DNA from: Chamaea fasciata | Taxonomy: Eukaryota; Chordata; Aves; Passeriformes; Sylviidae | DNA length: 64,000 nucleotides | Assembly (NCBI GenBank): GCA_029207755.1 | Contig: JARCOQ010000004.1 | Location: forward strand, 37,111,685 to 37,175,684 | Direction: 5' to 3' | Shown: positions 34,401-55,400 of the stretch, in pieces | How the letters are laid out: every line of letters starts with the position of its first letter | Position numbering within the stretch: position 1 is the stretch's first letter | Position numbers and translations under genes: made by a program | Notes under the pieces: generated by a model | What the model saw: only the letters and a program-made list of their open reading frames with translations | The model's database searches: none | Told to the model about the DNA's origin: nothing

Positions 34401-37400
34401 CTAAAGATTCATGCTTTACTAATGGTAGTAATTTTAGCATCTAGTGCTGTTGGGGGTTAAGTTTATTCCTTCTTTCTCTAAAGAATTTTTTCCCCAGAAG
34501 TTAACAAAGAGACCAAGTGTTAGATACTTGAGAGTACTTAACCGAAACAAAAGGGTGGACAAAGTTGGAAGGGGGAGATAAGGCAGGTAAAAGACAGAGC
34601 TTGAGTCAGTTGCGGGCTCTTCTTTTTCTGGGAGGGAACGGCTGTTGCTGGCTGGAAGAGTTTCACTGTGGCCGAAGGGATCCAGTCCTGGGAAATCTAC
34701 TATCACCGGTTCAGCCTGAATCCTGAGTTTTCTCTTCCACCCGCGGGAGCTGGGCCGGCCCTGCCTCGCCTTCGGCTTCTTCGGCTCTGCTCCTGTTGCT
34801 ACAGAGTGACCCTGCACCCCCTGCGCTGCTGGGACATCCTGCCCCTGCCTTCCGAGACACCCTGCCATCCCAGCTACCAGCCCGGGACTTGTCCACTGTT
34901 TCAGCTTGGTGCTCTGAGGATCCTGCAGGGGCACCAAGACCAAACTGCCCTGGGTTCTGTGAAACAAACCCCTCAAAGTTCTTGGTACTGTTTTCTTTTG
35001 TTATTAGTGCTATAGTTGTTTGGGGGTTTTTTTGTTTGCTTTGTAATACATACTAGTAAAGAACTGCTATTCCTGTTCCCAAATCTTTGCCTAAGAGCCT
35101 CTGATTGTAAATTTATAATTAGAAAAAAAAAAGAGGTGGTTTACATTCTCCATTCCAAAGGAAACTCCAGCTTTTACCTGGCAAATACTTGTCTTCCCAA
35201 ACCAAGGCAGATTTTGGCGCCCAGTGTGGGGCTCGAACCCAGGACCCTGGGATTAAGAGTCTTACGCTTTCACTGTGGTAAGAGGAGCAGTGCCGAAGAA
35301 GCCGAAGGCGAGGCAGGGCTGGCCCTGCCCCCGCGGGTGGTGGAGAAGGCTCAGGATTCAGGCTGAACCGGTGATAGTAGATTTCTTAGGACTGGATCTC
35401 TTTGGCCACAGTGAAACTCCTCTAGCCAGCAACAGTCCAGCCATTCTCTCTCCCTGAACGCTGAAAAAAGAACAGCCCAGGGAAAAAAGAACAGCCCCCA
35501 GCTGCCTCAAGCTCTGTCTTTTACCTGCGTCTATCTCTTCTTTAAACTTTGTCCACCTTTTTGTTTCGGTTAAGTACTCTCAAGTATCTGACACTTGGTC
35601 TCTTTGGTAACTTAAGGGGAAAAGATTCTTTGGAGAAAGAAGGAACAAACTTAACCCCCAGCAAATGCTCATGTAGTTTTTCCTGTTTATGTAGGATATT
35701 TAGCCAAAAGGTGTAGATGCATTAAACTTGCTAACAGTATGAGATTCTGGACAGCAAATTTGAGTGTTGTGCAACTGCTGTTGTCTTCATCTTTGCTGGA
35801 CAAGTTGTTAGGAAGAGAATACTGCTAGCATGACGGAGCAGCAGTCAAGTAGTTAAAGTCCAAGCATTCCTTTCTGCCAGATGTAATTGTGGGCTTGATG
35901 TCTCTGTTATGAAGGTTTTAGGGAGTTGAAGATTCTTTCAGTTTAGTCTTAAGTGACTGTTCTCGGTTAGCCTTCTGAAATGCACGTTTGCTTTTCTGAA
36001 ACTGGAAGAAACAGCAATGATCAATATAAGCTGAAGATTATACCTCAAGAAGATGGTCATAAAAAAGAATTTGGCAATAAGTTTTTAACTATAGTCTCAA
36101 TTTAATTTATACTTGTTTTTAGTTGATATAAGCATGAGGATTTTGCTCATATATGCTTACTGTTTTACAGCTTACAGCTTTACCTTGTTTCTCTGATGGT
36201 GGTTTATATTTAGGAAGATGAAGTACTGTTTTGAATGTCAAGCATTGCTACATTAGACTCCTAGATGTGGTACACTGGCTTAATGTTTCTGTGTGCAAAG
36301 TAGTATTTGCTGATTTTCACGCATTTTAAAAAAACTTCTCATATCTCTGAAATCATGAACTTCTGTTACAGTGGATAAAGTTGCATGGTATGGTGTGTAG
36401 AGTGTGTGTCACAGTGTAACTGTGGCCATTGTAAATATATGAAATTATTTAGAGATTGGTACTCTGTTGAGGAAACTAATTTGAGAATAAAGTGACCCTA
36501 GACTAGTTAAACTGCAGTGGCTCCAAGGTTGCTTCAGTGCTTGTATGGGAAATTCTGCTTTCTTTTGTATGCGTAAGGTTCTTACATGGTTTGTTTTTCT
36601 TCTTTACTTTATGGAAAGAATATAATTTTAGATAAATCTTGACACTTGGAGAAGACTGCTAGTTGTGTTTGTTGCATGTCCATGAATCCCTTAGGATGAA
36701 AACAGTTATATTTTTACCTGTATACCAGCGGTGAGAAGTGAGATTTGACCTACCCATTTTTTCCAGAACTGTCTTTCCAGCTGAATGCTGAACCATGAAT
36801 AGCCCACCCCTATGGAAAGTAATGAAGTGTGTCACACTTATGTATGTTAGATTTTTATAATGGAATGCATATAATTTTTATAATGGAATGCATATTACAC
36901 ATCTTTTGTTATAAGAATGGAATTGCCAAGGACTGGAGTACTTGGTTTTGAAATAAAAATTGTTGAAACTGGAAATGGAGGTTTTCAGGCTTGAGTATGA
37001 AAAGAGATTGCTATTTTCTATTAAATTTGAACTAGTTCAAAGTCTATGTGAACACGAACACCCTTCTAATCTCTTTTTTTAATTGCTTTTGTAGTGGTTA
37101 GGGGTTTTTTTTGTTGTTTGGTCTTGGATTCACTTTTTTTAACCAACTGCATATATCTGATATTTATTTATATATGAAGAACGTAGTTGAACGCTGTATA
37201 ATTGATGAACTTGCTGCTCAAGTTTTAGTTTTTAACTGATAAAATGAAATAGAGCTATGACATGGAGAAGGTAACAAATATTATTTCAAACACTTTATCA
37301 CAAATATATTCTAATCACCAGCCAAAAGAGTGCACTTTGTATATGACCCAATAGATTGCTTGCAGTTTATGAAATGCTTGTTGATATGTATTTTGTGGGA

Positions 37401-51649: not shown

Positions 51650-52440
51650 TGTTGGGGGTTAGGTTTGTTCCTTCTTATTCTAAAGAATTTTTTCCCCACA
51701 AGTTACCAAGGAGACCAAGTGTTGGATACTTGAGAGTACTTAACCGAAACAAAGAGGTGGACAAAGGTGGAAGGGGGAGATAAGGCAGGTAAAAGACAGA
51801 GCTTGAGGCAGCTGCGTGCTTTTTTTTTTCCGGCGTTCGAGAAGACGCGTGTCTGTGGCTCCTCGAGGAGCTCAGCCGCCGCAAAGCACGCCGAGGGGAG
51901 AACGGCTGTTGCTGGCTGGAGGAGTTTCACTGTGGCCAAGGGGGTCCCGTCCTGGGAAATCTACTATCACCAGTTCGGCCTGAATCCGGAGTTTTCCCGG
52001 CCACCCGCGGGGAGCTGGTTCAGGCCCTGCCTCGCCTTCGGCTTCTTCGGCGCTGCTCCTCTTGCTACAGCGTGACCCTGCACCCCCTGCGCTGCCGGGA
52101 CATCCTGCCCCTGCCTGCCGGGACACCCTGCCATCCCAGCTACCAGCCCGGGACTTTCCCACTGTTTCAGCTTGGTGCTCTGAGGATCCTGCAGGGACAC
52201 CGAAACCAAACTGCCCTGGGTTTTGTGAAACAAAGCCCTCAAGGTTCTTGGTACTGTTGTCGTTTGTCATTAATGCTGTAGTTGTTTGGTGGGGGGGGGG
52301 GGGGGAGGTATTTTTTTGTGTCTGTTTGCTTTGTATTACATACTAGTAAAGAACTCCTATTCCTATTTCCCAAATCTTTGCCAAAGAGCCTTTGATTGTA
52401 ATTTTTACCTAGCAGATACCTGTCTTCCCAAACCAAGACA
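51650..52440 (+). mobile_element. Solo LTR with perfect 5-bp target-site duplication
   Basis: 791 bp starting TGTTGGGG and ending AACCAAGACA. The flanks CCAGA (51645-51649) and CCAGA (52441-52445) are identical, so both boundaries are exact. It belongs to the same family as the two arms at 34.4-35.7 kb. A 5-bp duplication is typical of ERVL-type integrases, though family assignment needs a library search. It includes a run of 15 G at 52291-52305 where the related LTR has five. Being solo, it arose by recombination between the two LTRs of a former provirus. Confidence 0.93.
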
Positions 52441-52445
52441 CCAGA

Positions 52446-55400
52446 ACAGTAGATTTATTGGGAGAAATTCATGTATTCTTTTGTGAAAGCATCTAACCAC
52501 AACTGTGGTAAGAGGGCTTAGACTGTACAGGCTCACTGTTTTCTGCAGCAAAACTTGTGCTTAAAGAAGGATTTCATTATAACTAATATACCTTGGCTGG
52601 CTTAATTACTTCCACGCCTACAGTTATAACTTTGCGACTCTAGGTGGCAGTACACATTTGCAGTAAGTTGAATTTGGAAAATGTTTTGGGTATGCTTGTA
52701 TTCCAGACGGCTACTGAAAATTCAAGCAGTGACATCATGAATGCTAATCATTTCCTTACTGTGATACATAAATAAGGGCAAATCAACTCAGAAGTTCCTG
52801 ATCATAAGGTGACACAAGGTTTTCAGCATAACTAGAGTAAAAACATTGTGTCAAGGAGTTTTGATTCATCTCTTAATTCTCTTCAAATCTCATCCGCCAG
52901 AGAAAAAACAAACCAAAAAACAGCCAACCAAACCCAATTATCAGTTTAATACATGGGATTTTGCTGTCACTGCTTTGTATCACTGTTTTAGTTAGGACAG
53001 GGGAACAAGCTTTATTGGAATTGTGTGTTGGATGGAAACCTCAGTTGGTGGCTGAAGGCTGCTTAAAGTGTGTAATGATAATATGAGGAAGAAAAAGGTA
53101 AGTGCTAATTCATAAGAAACTAACTCACAAAGAAGTATTTAGATGTTTGTATATAGGTAACTATTCGCAGCGTATGAAGAAAATTAGAGAGGGGAGATAC
53201 TTATTTTCCTGTTTCCTAATTAAAATTCCTACTTCGTGCTTTTTGTATTAGAGAATTTGATGGTGATGTGTAGTATATTTTAAGAGTCTATTTTAATTAC
53301 TATTGCATTTGCAAGTAATTGTTGTAGTCAGTAGTATTTTATGTTTTTAATGTTCTTGAAGTATTCTTGTATTCATGACTTCATAGTCACTTCTCAGGAC
53401 TTAAAAACCCCATTGTTCTTTCTTCTCTTAAAGTCATACAGACCAAAACTTTTTCCCCTACTGAAGGAAAAAATAGTTTTCTTATTAGTGATATGTTACC
53501 ATTCCCAGGGGAAAAAATGTTAAAGCAGGATGGAGGTACAGTAAACTTTCGTTTGTATGTTTACTTTGTTTTTAAACATTATGGTGGATCATTGTTTTCC
53601 TGGTTTTGTTTTGTCTTATTTTACAATAATGAACTTTTGGAAGAAGTGATATGGACTACCTAAGCATTATTTTTTCCCCACTTTTTTAATATGAATGCTT
53701 CCAGTTCCTATTTGGATTGGAATATGAAGAATTAAGTATGAGACTGAGAAAATTAAACAAAAATAGCATTGTACTATCTGCAGTGAAGTTAGAGAAAAGC
53801 CTTTCATGCAGAGCTATGAATGGAAATGAGCCATTCATTGTTCTCTTGCACAGGTGAATTTTGTAGCATCTTTCATTTGAGTAGTACACAGATGCTCTTC
53901 TGTGTAAATTGAAACACAATAATTGATTACATGAGATCTATGCAAAGTGTCAAATACCTCTCTCGGAAGCCTGATACTACATGCTTGATATTTTCTTTTG
54001 ATGTTTCAACTTGTAGAATATGAAAATTGCTTTCAGTTTCTTTTAATTTCTGGAATTTAAAAAACAAAACAAAACAAAAACAAAAACACAACAACAGCTT
54101 ATTTTGCTTCTGATTACATAATTATTATGTGAGAACTGCTTTGGCATAAAGTAAGCTACCAAAATCCTTTGGTTTCATGATCATTAGTTGGAAACTACAT
54201 TTTTTAAAAAAATATCAAATAATCACAGAATGTTGCATCTCTGTATGCTAGAATAGTTTTTATTATTTTACCTTTATGAAATTAGGTAACCTGTGATTGA
54301 CAAGAGGAAAATCTATTTCAGACAAATCTCTGTATTTCCAAATCTGTAATGTGTAAATACAGCTTTTAATTGTGTAAATTTAACTCATAAAAATAATTTT
54401 GAAGTATGGTTTTGAAATACAGTATGAAAATAAAAATCAGTCACACTACTTTGATGTGATTTGCCCAAGGATGGAACTAAACCTATTTCCTCTCCTAGGC
54501 TAGTCAGTTTTTCCTCAGTAAAGAAAAATATTCTGAGATGTTTTCATGCGAGGAAGGAATTTAAGAAAATATTGCTTAATCACCTTTGCTGATTCCAGTG
54601 ATAATAAAAACTACAATTTAGAAACACACTATAGCAATTAGCAAACACATTGGTATAAAAACTAGGTAAGGACAAAGACACTGGGTTACAAGAAAAGAAT
54701 GTTGTTTTAGAAATAGGTGATTGCTGCAAGGAAAGAATTCTTCATTTCTTGAATAGAGGAAGCTTAAATTTACTTTGCTTTCCTTTTAGGAAAAGATTTC
54801 TAGGTACCTAAAGGTGAAATTAGAGCAGCAGCAACAAACAGCCAAATTAATCAGTTTGACTGTTCATGTTATGTTTATATTATTTAGTATGGGATAGCTA
54901 CTCAAAACACTATTTAAAGCAATAATTGCCACAACAATGCTCTGCCTGACTGACACCAGCATCTGCTGGTAACTGCCTGCTGCTTTCAACAGGGAATACT
55001 CAAAGTGGTGCCCTGTGGGCCAGGTACAGCTTATAGGGTGAATCCTGTAATGGTTCCCTGCCTTTTCTGCTGTGGTTTGGCCATCAGGCTGTACCTTAGG
55101 GGGAACCCTTGCCCAGACCCCACAGTTGCTAGGGTAGCCTGTGGCTGCCAGCAGTCAAGTGTTTGTTCATTGGCTGCAGAGCAGGGGCAGTTTAAACACA
55201 CACATCACAGGAACATGGATGTGTCTTTGGCCTTTGGAAGACTGGCACAACAATAGACAGTATTATTCACCATGAAACTGCCCATCCTTTGCACTTTTGC
55301 ACTGCTTCTATTGCACTGTACAATCTGGCATTGCTTTAAGTCTTGTGTTTCACTCAGAATGTGTGTACTCACTGTACTTCACTGTACATCCTAGTAAATT

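Follow-up and report, generated by a model that had tools for sequence, protein, structure and literature searches.

The palindromic insertion at positions 34448-35663 of the window (the whole 64,000-nt stretch of Chamaea fasciata DNA analysed here) is probably a reverse-transcription product of an ERVL-like element that went astray and was integrated once into the germline. Direct reading shows a complete LTR followed by a spacer of 5 nt, a PBS for tRNA-Lys and an inverted U3; the element both begins and ends in a U3 terminus (Table 1). At its centre lies a 56-nt antisense copy of tRNA-Lys(CTT), PBS included, which runs 38 nt beyond the PBS and has its endpoint at A21. Apparently, the element preserves in the germline a type of copying error that had been known from the laboratory. 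The same architecture, a palindrome around a tRNA copy with outer U3 ends and perfect 5-bp duplications, recurs at two other sites in the genome, L044 and L081.

Table 1. Coordinates of the focal element and of a comparison LTR in the window.
Feature	Positions	Strand	Remark
Left flank AGTGC, putative 5-bp target-site duplication	34443..34447		
Arm A, full-length LTR (U3-R-U5), TGTTGGGG...CCAAGGCA	34448..35209	+	
Spacer GATTT, from LTR end to PBS	35210..35214	+	same in 26 family copies read
18-nt PBS, complementary to the 3' end of tRNA-Lys(CTT)	35215..35232	+	
Over-extension, antisense tRNA-Lys(CTT) through position 58 and the anticodon as far as A21	35233..35270	+	alignment to L045:1501-1573
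Arm B, inverted partial LTR (U3 side); terminus CAGCA, inner truncation at CACTG	35271..35663	-	
16-nt word GAAAAAAGAACAGCCC, twice, 19 apart, inside arm B	35463..35497	+	
Right flank AATGC, putative target-site duplication, 4/5	35664..35668		
Solo LTR of ordinary type, same family, flanked by CCAGA/CCAGA	51650..52440	+	comparison copy, perfect duplication

An earlier sequence-only reading of this DNA had described a full LTR, a PBS, an inverted partial LTR, outer U3 ends and flanks agreeing at four of five positions, and both direct reading and alignment of the two arms bear this anatomy out. Arm B aligns with arm A from the first base (TGTTGG.. / TGCTGG..) to position 357 of arm A, and the inverted segments are 91% complementary at 34448-34571/35540-35663, 91% at 34583-34627/35484-35528 and 90% at 34642-34804/35273-35435. 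A chance stretch was rejected as the source of the palindrome, since this complementarity is far above chance. The doubled word is found in arm B only, among 13 rows aligned. An ordinary provirus has direct LTRs and ends in U3 and U5, whereas the LTRs of the focal element are inverted and both of its ends are U3. Neither is the element a solo LTR, as two inverted arms enclose tRNA sequence.

The focal element belongs to an LTR family by its identity to family LTRs and its TG...CA ends: 40 other LTR rows align with arm A over most of the length of the arm at 84-90% identity (40 scored of 4082 candidates). Target-site duplications were examined for 38 family LTRs, 33 of them with a clean 3' end, and the flanking pentamers agreed at 5/5 in 20 of the 33 and at 4/5 in a further seven. 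In the six unclean LTRs, the end had been misplaced by the script in at least three (L006, L017 and L035), and another, L002, has a PBS as its 3' neighbour. The family duplication is therefore 5 bp, and the 4/5 agreement at the focal element is not unusual. Pentamers matching at 4 or 5 of 5 positions in 27/33 copies agree with the 5-bp duplication of ERVL-like class III elements. One broken family pol piece matches RVT_1 weakly (E 1.5e-4, under the curated cut-off), and searches with two other family pol pieces matched no family; the label "ERVL-like" is provisional and follows the duplication length.

The long tRNA complement sets the focal element apart from ordinary members of its family. 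When aligned to the tRNA-Lys(CTT) gene of the genome (L045:1501-1573, called by ARAGORN), 49 of its 56 positions agree, and it is unbroken to U5 and the spacer and far exceeds 18 nt, as over-extended plus-strand strong-stop DNA would. A genome search with 35196-35300 as the query gave 274 candidates, of which 40 were scored. These comprised the focal locus, the tRNA gene, two loci with a long tRNA copy (L044 and L047) and 36 others matching only to about base 41, which corresponds to the LTR end, the spacer and about 18 nt of PBS. All 26 ordinary family leaders read among these 36 continue with an unrelated leader after about 18 nt, as does L002. We therefore rejected the possibility that the long tRNA complement is a leader common to the whole family; over-extension is no feature of the family genome as sampled. 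Further copies of the focal junction in the same genome, which the sequence-only reading had proposed to look for, did not emerge among the 40 scored of 274 candidates. Elsewhere in the window, at 52498-52516 and about 60 bases past the solo LTR, the 14-base word ACTGTGGTAAGAGG matches the focal junction at 35272-35285, probably by chance.

Searching the genome with the complement of the tRNA gene yielded eight candidates, all of which were scored: the Lys(CTT) gene, a Lys(TTT) gene (L080), the focal element, L044, L047, L078, L081 and L079. At L044, an LTR is followed by the spacer, a complete tRNA copy (75/76 positions aligned, with 7 changes relative to the tRNA gene) and an inverted LTR, with the U3 ends facing outward. 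No difference separates the two arms over 682 bp, and the flanks read CATTT/CATTT. An assembly artefact was rejected for L044, as the host flanks differ between the two sides and carry the perfect duplication. ARAGORN still calls the tRNA copy at L044:1471-1546 a tRNA-Lys(ctt) gene despite its C>T changes. At L081, 56 nt of tRNA end at the same base as in the focal element and are followed by CA-AAATC and the inverted LTR, within perfect 5-bp flanks (CATGT/CATGT). The stop at A21 falls one base before position 20, a dihydrouridine in many tRNAs. Only TGTTG is left of the L081 left arm, directly before ACA-GATTT, which we read as an internal deletion. The earlier proposal of one integrase-mediated event after aberrant reverse transcription is thus the best supported, mainly by the perfect 5-bp duplications of L044 and L081, but it had overlooked the over-extension. 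With U3 on both sides and a 5-bp duplication (4/5 at the focal element, 5/5 at L044 and L081), these loci have what integration of two U3 ends would leave.

The remaining over-extended copies are joined to different partners. L047 belongs to another ERV family, its LTR having no match to the focal LTR, and consists of an LTR and 70 nt of antisense tRNA-Lys directly joined to a sense pol piece (RVT_1, E 1.9e-9, Pfam). The locus (L047 and L110, G000:C4:56905378-56908968) is a short provirus with LTRs 99.1% alike over 546 bp and flanks GCACC/GCAAC. L078 carries an LTR, a tRNA copy of about 67 nt lacking two bases, a Wnt cDNA (PF00110, best E 7.3e-20) and a second LTR that is 88% like the first, within flanks CCCTG/CCCTG. 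The locus (L078 and L112, G000:C2:116437694-116441112) thereby has the form of a Wnt retrocopy between LTRs, and its tRNA copy lies at the 5' junction. The cDNA presumably is most like WNT16, and among the LTRs compared, that of L078 matches only its own partner. A comparison of flanks shows that the pentamers agree at 4/5 or 5/5 in all five ERV-linked tRNA copies. At L079, an antisense tRNA was found with no LTR visible by eye. Lys(TTT) was also considered as a second primer tRNA, giving six candidates, all scored: L080 and both C12 places were called as Lys(TTT) genes by ARAGORN, L118 and L120 gave no call, and one row was the Lys(CTT) gene. A clear ERV-linked case was not found among these six, with L120 (G000:C16:13032117-13032151) as a possible exception. 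This candidate starts like a PBS and carries antisense tRNA-Lys(TTT) over 39 nt; the copy stops just before position 37, as the HIV-1 P5 product would.

The association between palindromes and over-extension can also be seen from exact pattern searches. For two inverted U5 ends separated by a centre of 45-75 nt, only L044 and L081 match, and the reversed control gave 0 on both strands. For a centre of 0-30 nt, which includes the normal 18-nt PBS, there was no match, and the reversed control gave 1 per strand. The palindromes found in this way therefore accompany over-extension rather than a normal PBS; the numbers are small and refer to exact patterns, so that diverged copies, the focal element included, are uncounted.

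Whether the two focal arms are siblings bears upon how they were joined. Two U3 samples, a first one of 45 rows and a wider one of 70 rows, hold the copies closest to arm A or arm B (40 scored of 4082 candidates and 40 of 2446). In the 70-row sample, arm B falls in a 21-row U3 group (support 100/97) without arm A, and forcing the two together costs 37.7 log-likelihood units (p-AU 0.083); the corresponding cost in the first sample was 21.3 units (p 0.209). The arms differ from one another at 14% of 357 positions, whereas the nearest sampled copy differs by 10.7% from arm B and by 5.9% from arm A. Based upon these distances and the separate U3 groups, the two arms probably already differed at birth. 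When pairs were ranked by shared rare states in the first sample, A and B came first among 903 at one threshold, with four sites that each occur in at most one other row; at the strictest threshold they had none in common (rank 53). The wider sample, with 2415 pairs, gave none at the two strictest thresholds; at the looser ones, A and B shared two sites, which placed them seventh, and three, which placed them fifth. As proof of a joint birth, the four rare states common to the arms were weakened by this wider sampling. Probably, the focal arms represent two variants of one virus population, as would be the case with two co-packaged genomes, a scenario which also leaves room for two separate insertions.

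The changes carried by the tRNA copies are unevenly distributed between the strands. Outside CpG sites, the five copies exhibit 16 C>T and 1 G>A changes relative to the tRNA gene (two-sided p 4e-4); CpG sites contribute 6 C>T and 3 G>A, and other kinds of change amount to 6. Position 29 is changed in four of the five copies. In L081, the C>T at position 29 and the G>A at position 41 fall on a base pair and perhaps reflect another Lys isodecoder; minus this pair, the non-CpG count is 15 C>T vs 0 G>A. Such a bias would be compatible with a plus-strand tail that was deaminated while single-stranded, or alternatively with tRNA bases having been misread.

The behavior of HIV-1 suggests how such molecules might arise. 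According to PMC13191261, plus-strand strong-stop DNA normally ends before m1A58; on unmodified tRNA, plus-strand synthesis copies to the tRNA 5' end; loss of the A58 methyltransferase complex in cells lets synthesis pass A58; and only products ending at 58, 55 or 54 serve in transfer. By analogy, plus-strand strong-stop DNA of the focal element (U3-R-U5) would have copied the 18-nt tRNA-Lys primer and, through absence or bypass of m1A58, read on past this stop to A21. The tRNA tail would mismatch the viral leader, such that the second strand transfer could not be extended. Instead, the tail may have been linked by its 3' end to that of another LTR DNA which had also started in U3, probably from a co-packaged variant, either by template jumping of reverse transcriptase or by host end joining. 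The presumed product would be a short linear duplex with U3 at both ends, which integrase could insert with a 5-bp duplication. At L044 and L081, the partner starts with CA ahead of AAATC, as would be left by cleavage of its own tRNA two bases from the terminus, and the focal partner starts at CACTG within the LTR. Arm B may have lost its inner part during joining, or else in a later deletion running from one TG dinucleotide to another; since TG is present both at the CACTG site of the family LTR and at an L081-type join, deletion from an L081-like ancestor would be a simple path. Stranded tails may have found various partners: a second LTR DNA in the focal element, L044 and L081, pol in L047 and host cDNA in L078. 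It is conceivable, and we put it forward tentatively, that failure of the m1A58 stop gives this lineage a recurrent side path, from which tails are joined and lead to two-U3 integration or to the capture of pol or mRNA, with single-stranded tails also being deaminated.

Several features of the focal copy stand against a single integration of such a product: its duplication is 4/5 rather than 5/5, its arms group with different LTR sublineages, arm B is truncated, so that the original join is not visible, and a two-U3 linear duplex needs two plus-strand starts or an opened hairpin, neither of which is seen directly. The closest rival differs solely in the joining step. In a fold-back, the tRNA tail would prime on its own strand and copy to the U3 end, with the resulting hairpin opened later. 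The identical arms of L044 are as this scheme would have them, and a full antisense tRNA 3' end could pair with the PBS start in an acceptor-stem-like manner. However, no such pairing is available to a tail that stops at A21, as in the focal copy and L081; a hairpin, with its single end, requires an unseen opening; and the extra CA on the partner side of L044 and L081 would rather fit a U5 end with its tRNA cut off. The focal arms, moreover, resemble two sublineages and fall in different U3 groups (p-AU 0.083), and a single-molecule fold-back is consequently unproven for this copy. On balance, we consider fold-back unlikely. Two insertions, in which an LTR with a tRNA tail was followed by an inverted LTR nearby and by a deletion joining the tail to the middle of that LTR, would accommodate both the different U3 groups and the truncated inner side of arm B. 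However, the outer flanks would then match by chance alone, for which simple arithmetic gives 16/1024 (~1.6%) at 4/5 or better; L044 and L081 share the outward-U3 anatomy with perfect duplications; and the over-extended tRNA would still need an explanation of its own. We judge this sequence of events to be quite unlikely.

Alternatives invoking later rearrangement or mobility as a unit fare worse. Recombination between two inverted LTRs can invert the chromosome segment between them, and we have read such a case at L009 (G000:C4:9736524-9738675), where two full inverted LTRs lie about 550 bp apart and the flank pairs AATAT/AATAT and CCAAT/CCAAG match only with the middle turned back; L009 probably is an inversion by recombination between LTRs. 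The flanks reject an inversion of this type at the focal locus: its two outer pentamers agree with one another, and the arms enclose no visible host DNA. Antisense tRNA, furthermore, is not something that an inversion would create, and we find this alternative barely credible here. The sequence-only reading had also raised a small non-autonomous family moving as a unit, which could be reconciled with three palindromes in one genome and with the A21 endpoint common to the focal element and L081. Against this, scoring 40 of 274 candidates turned up no further copy of the focal junction, and each palindrome has an LTR sequence and tRNA changes of its own, L044 also a different tRNA length, which leaves such a family highly improbable. 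A single integration of a joined, over-extended product is the reading that we prefer.

Based upon these loci, over-extension products appear to have been integrated and inherited with their stops kept to the base, at A21 twice and at the tRNA 5' end once, which suggests that, in nature, a pair of U3 ends can serve as integrase substrate. An LTR followed by more than 18 nt of antisense tRNA is also a searchable signature, allowing the frequency, stop sites and fates of over-extension to be compared between genomes and between hosts that differ in tRNA modification. In the titles and abstract openings of part of the matching open-access literature, palindromic or U3-U3 integrated LTRs were not found.

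When compared to known systems, the focal element has the LTR, the U3 terminus and the 5-bp duplication of its family's many solo LTRs, such as the one at 51650-52440. Solo LTRs differ in that they end in U3 on one side and in U5 on the other and lack tRNA sequence, being products of recombination between direct LTRs. The junctions of 2-LTR circles and autointegration products likewise reflect aberrant joining of viral ends, sometimes with tRNA or PBS remnants. These consist of U5-U3 joins or rearrangements of the whole genome, whereas in the focal element U5/tRNA ends are joined tail to tail and two U3 ends integrate. LTR-mediated retrocopies, represented here by L078, are akin in their template switching during reverse transcription of an LTR element; they capture host mRNA, whereas the focal element captured another LTR. 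The closest likeness is with the over-extended strong-stop DNA of HIV-1 (P1 and P5; PMC13191261), in which U5 likewise continues into tRNA-Lys beyond position 58, L044 having the complete copy. The HIV-1 products were obtained in vitro or in cell culture, the longest being described as not serving in transfer, whereas the loci described here are integrated and inherited, belong to an ERVL-like element using tRNA-Lys(CTT) and have the over-extended end joined to a second LTR.
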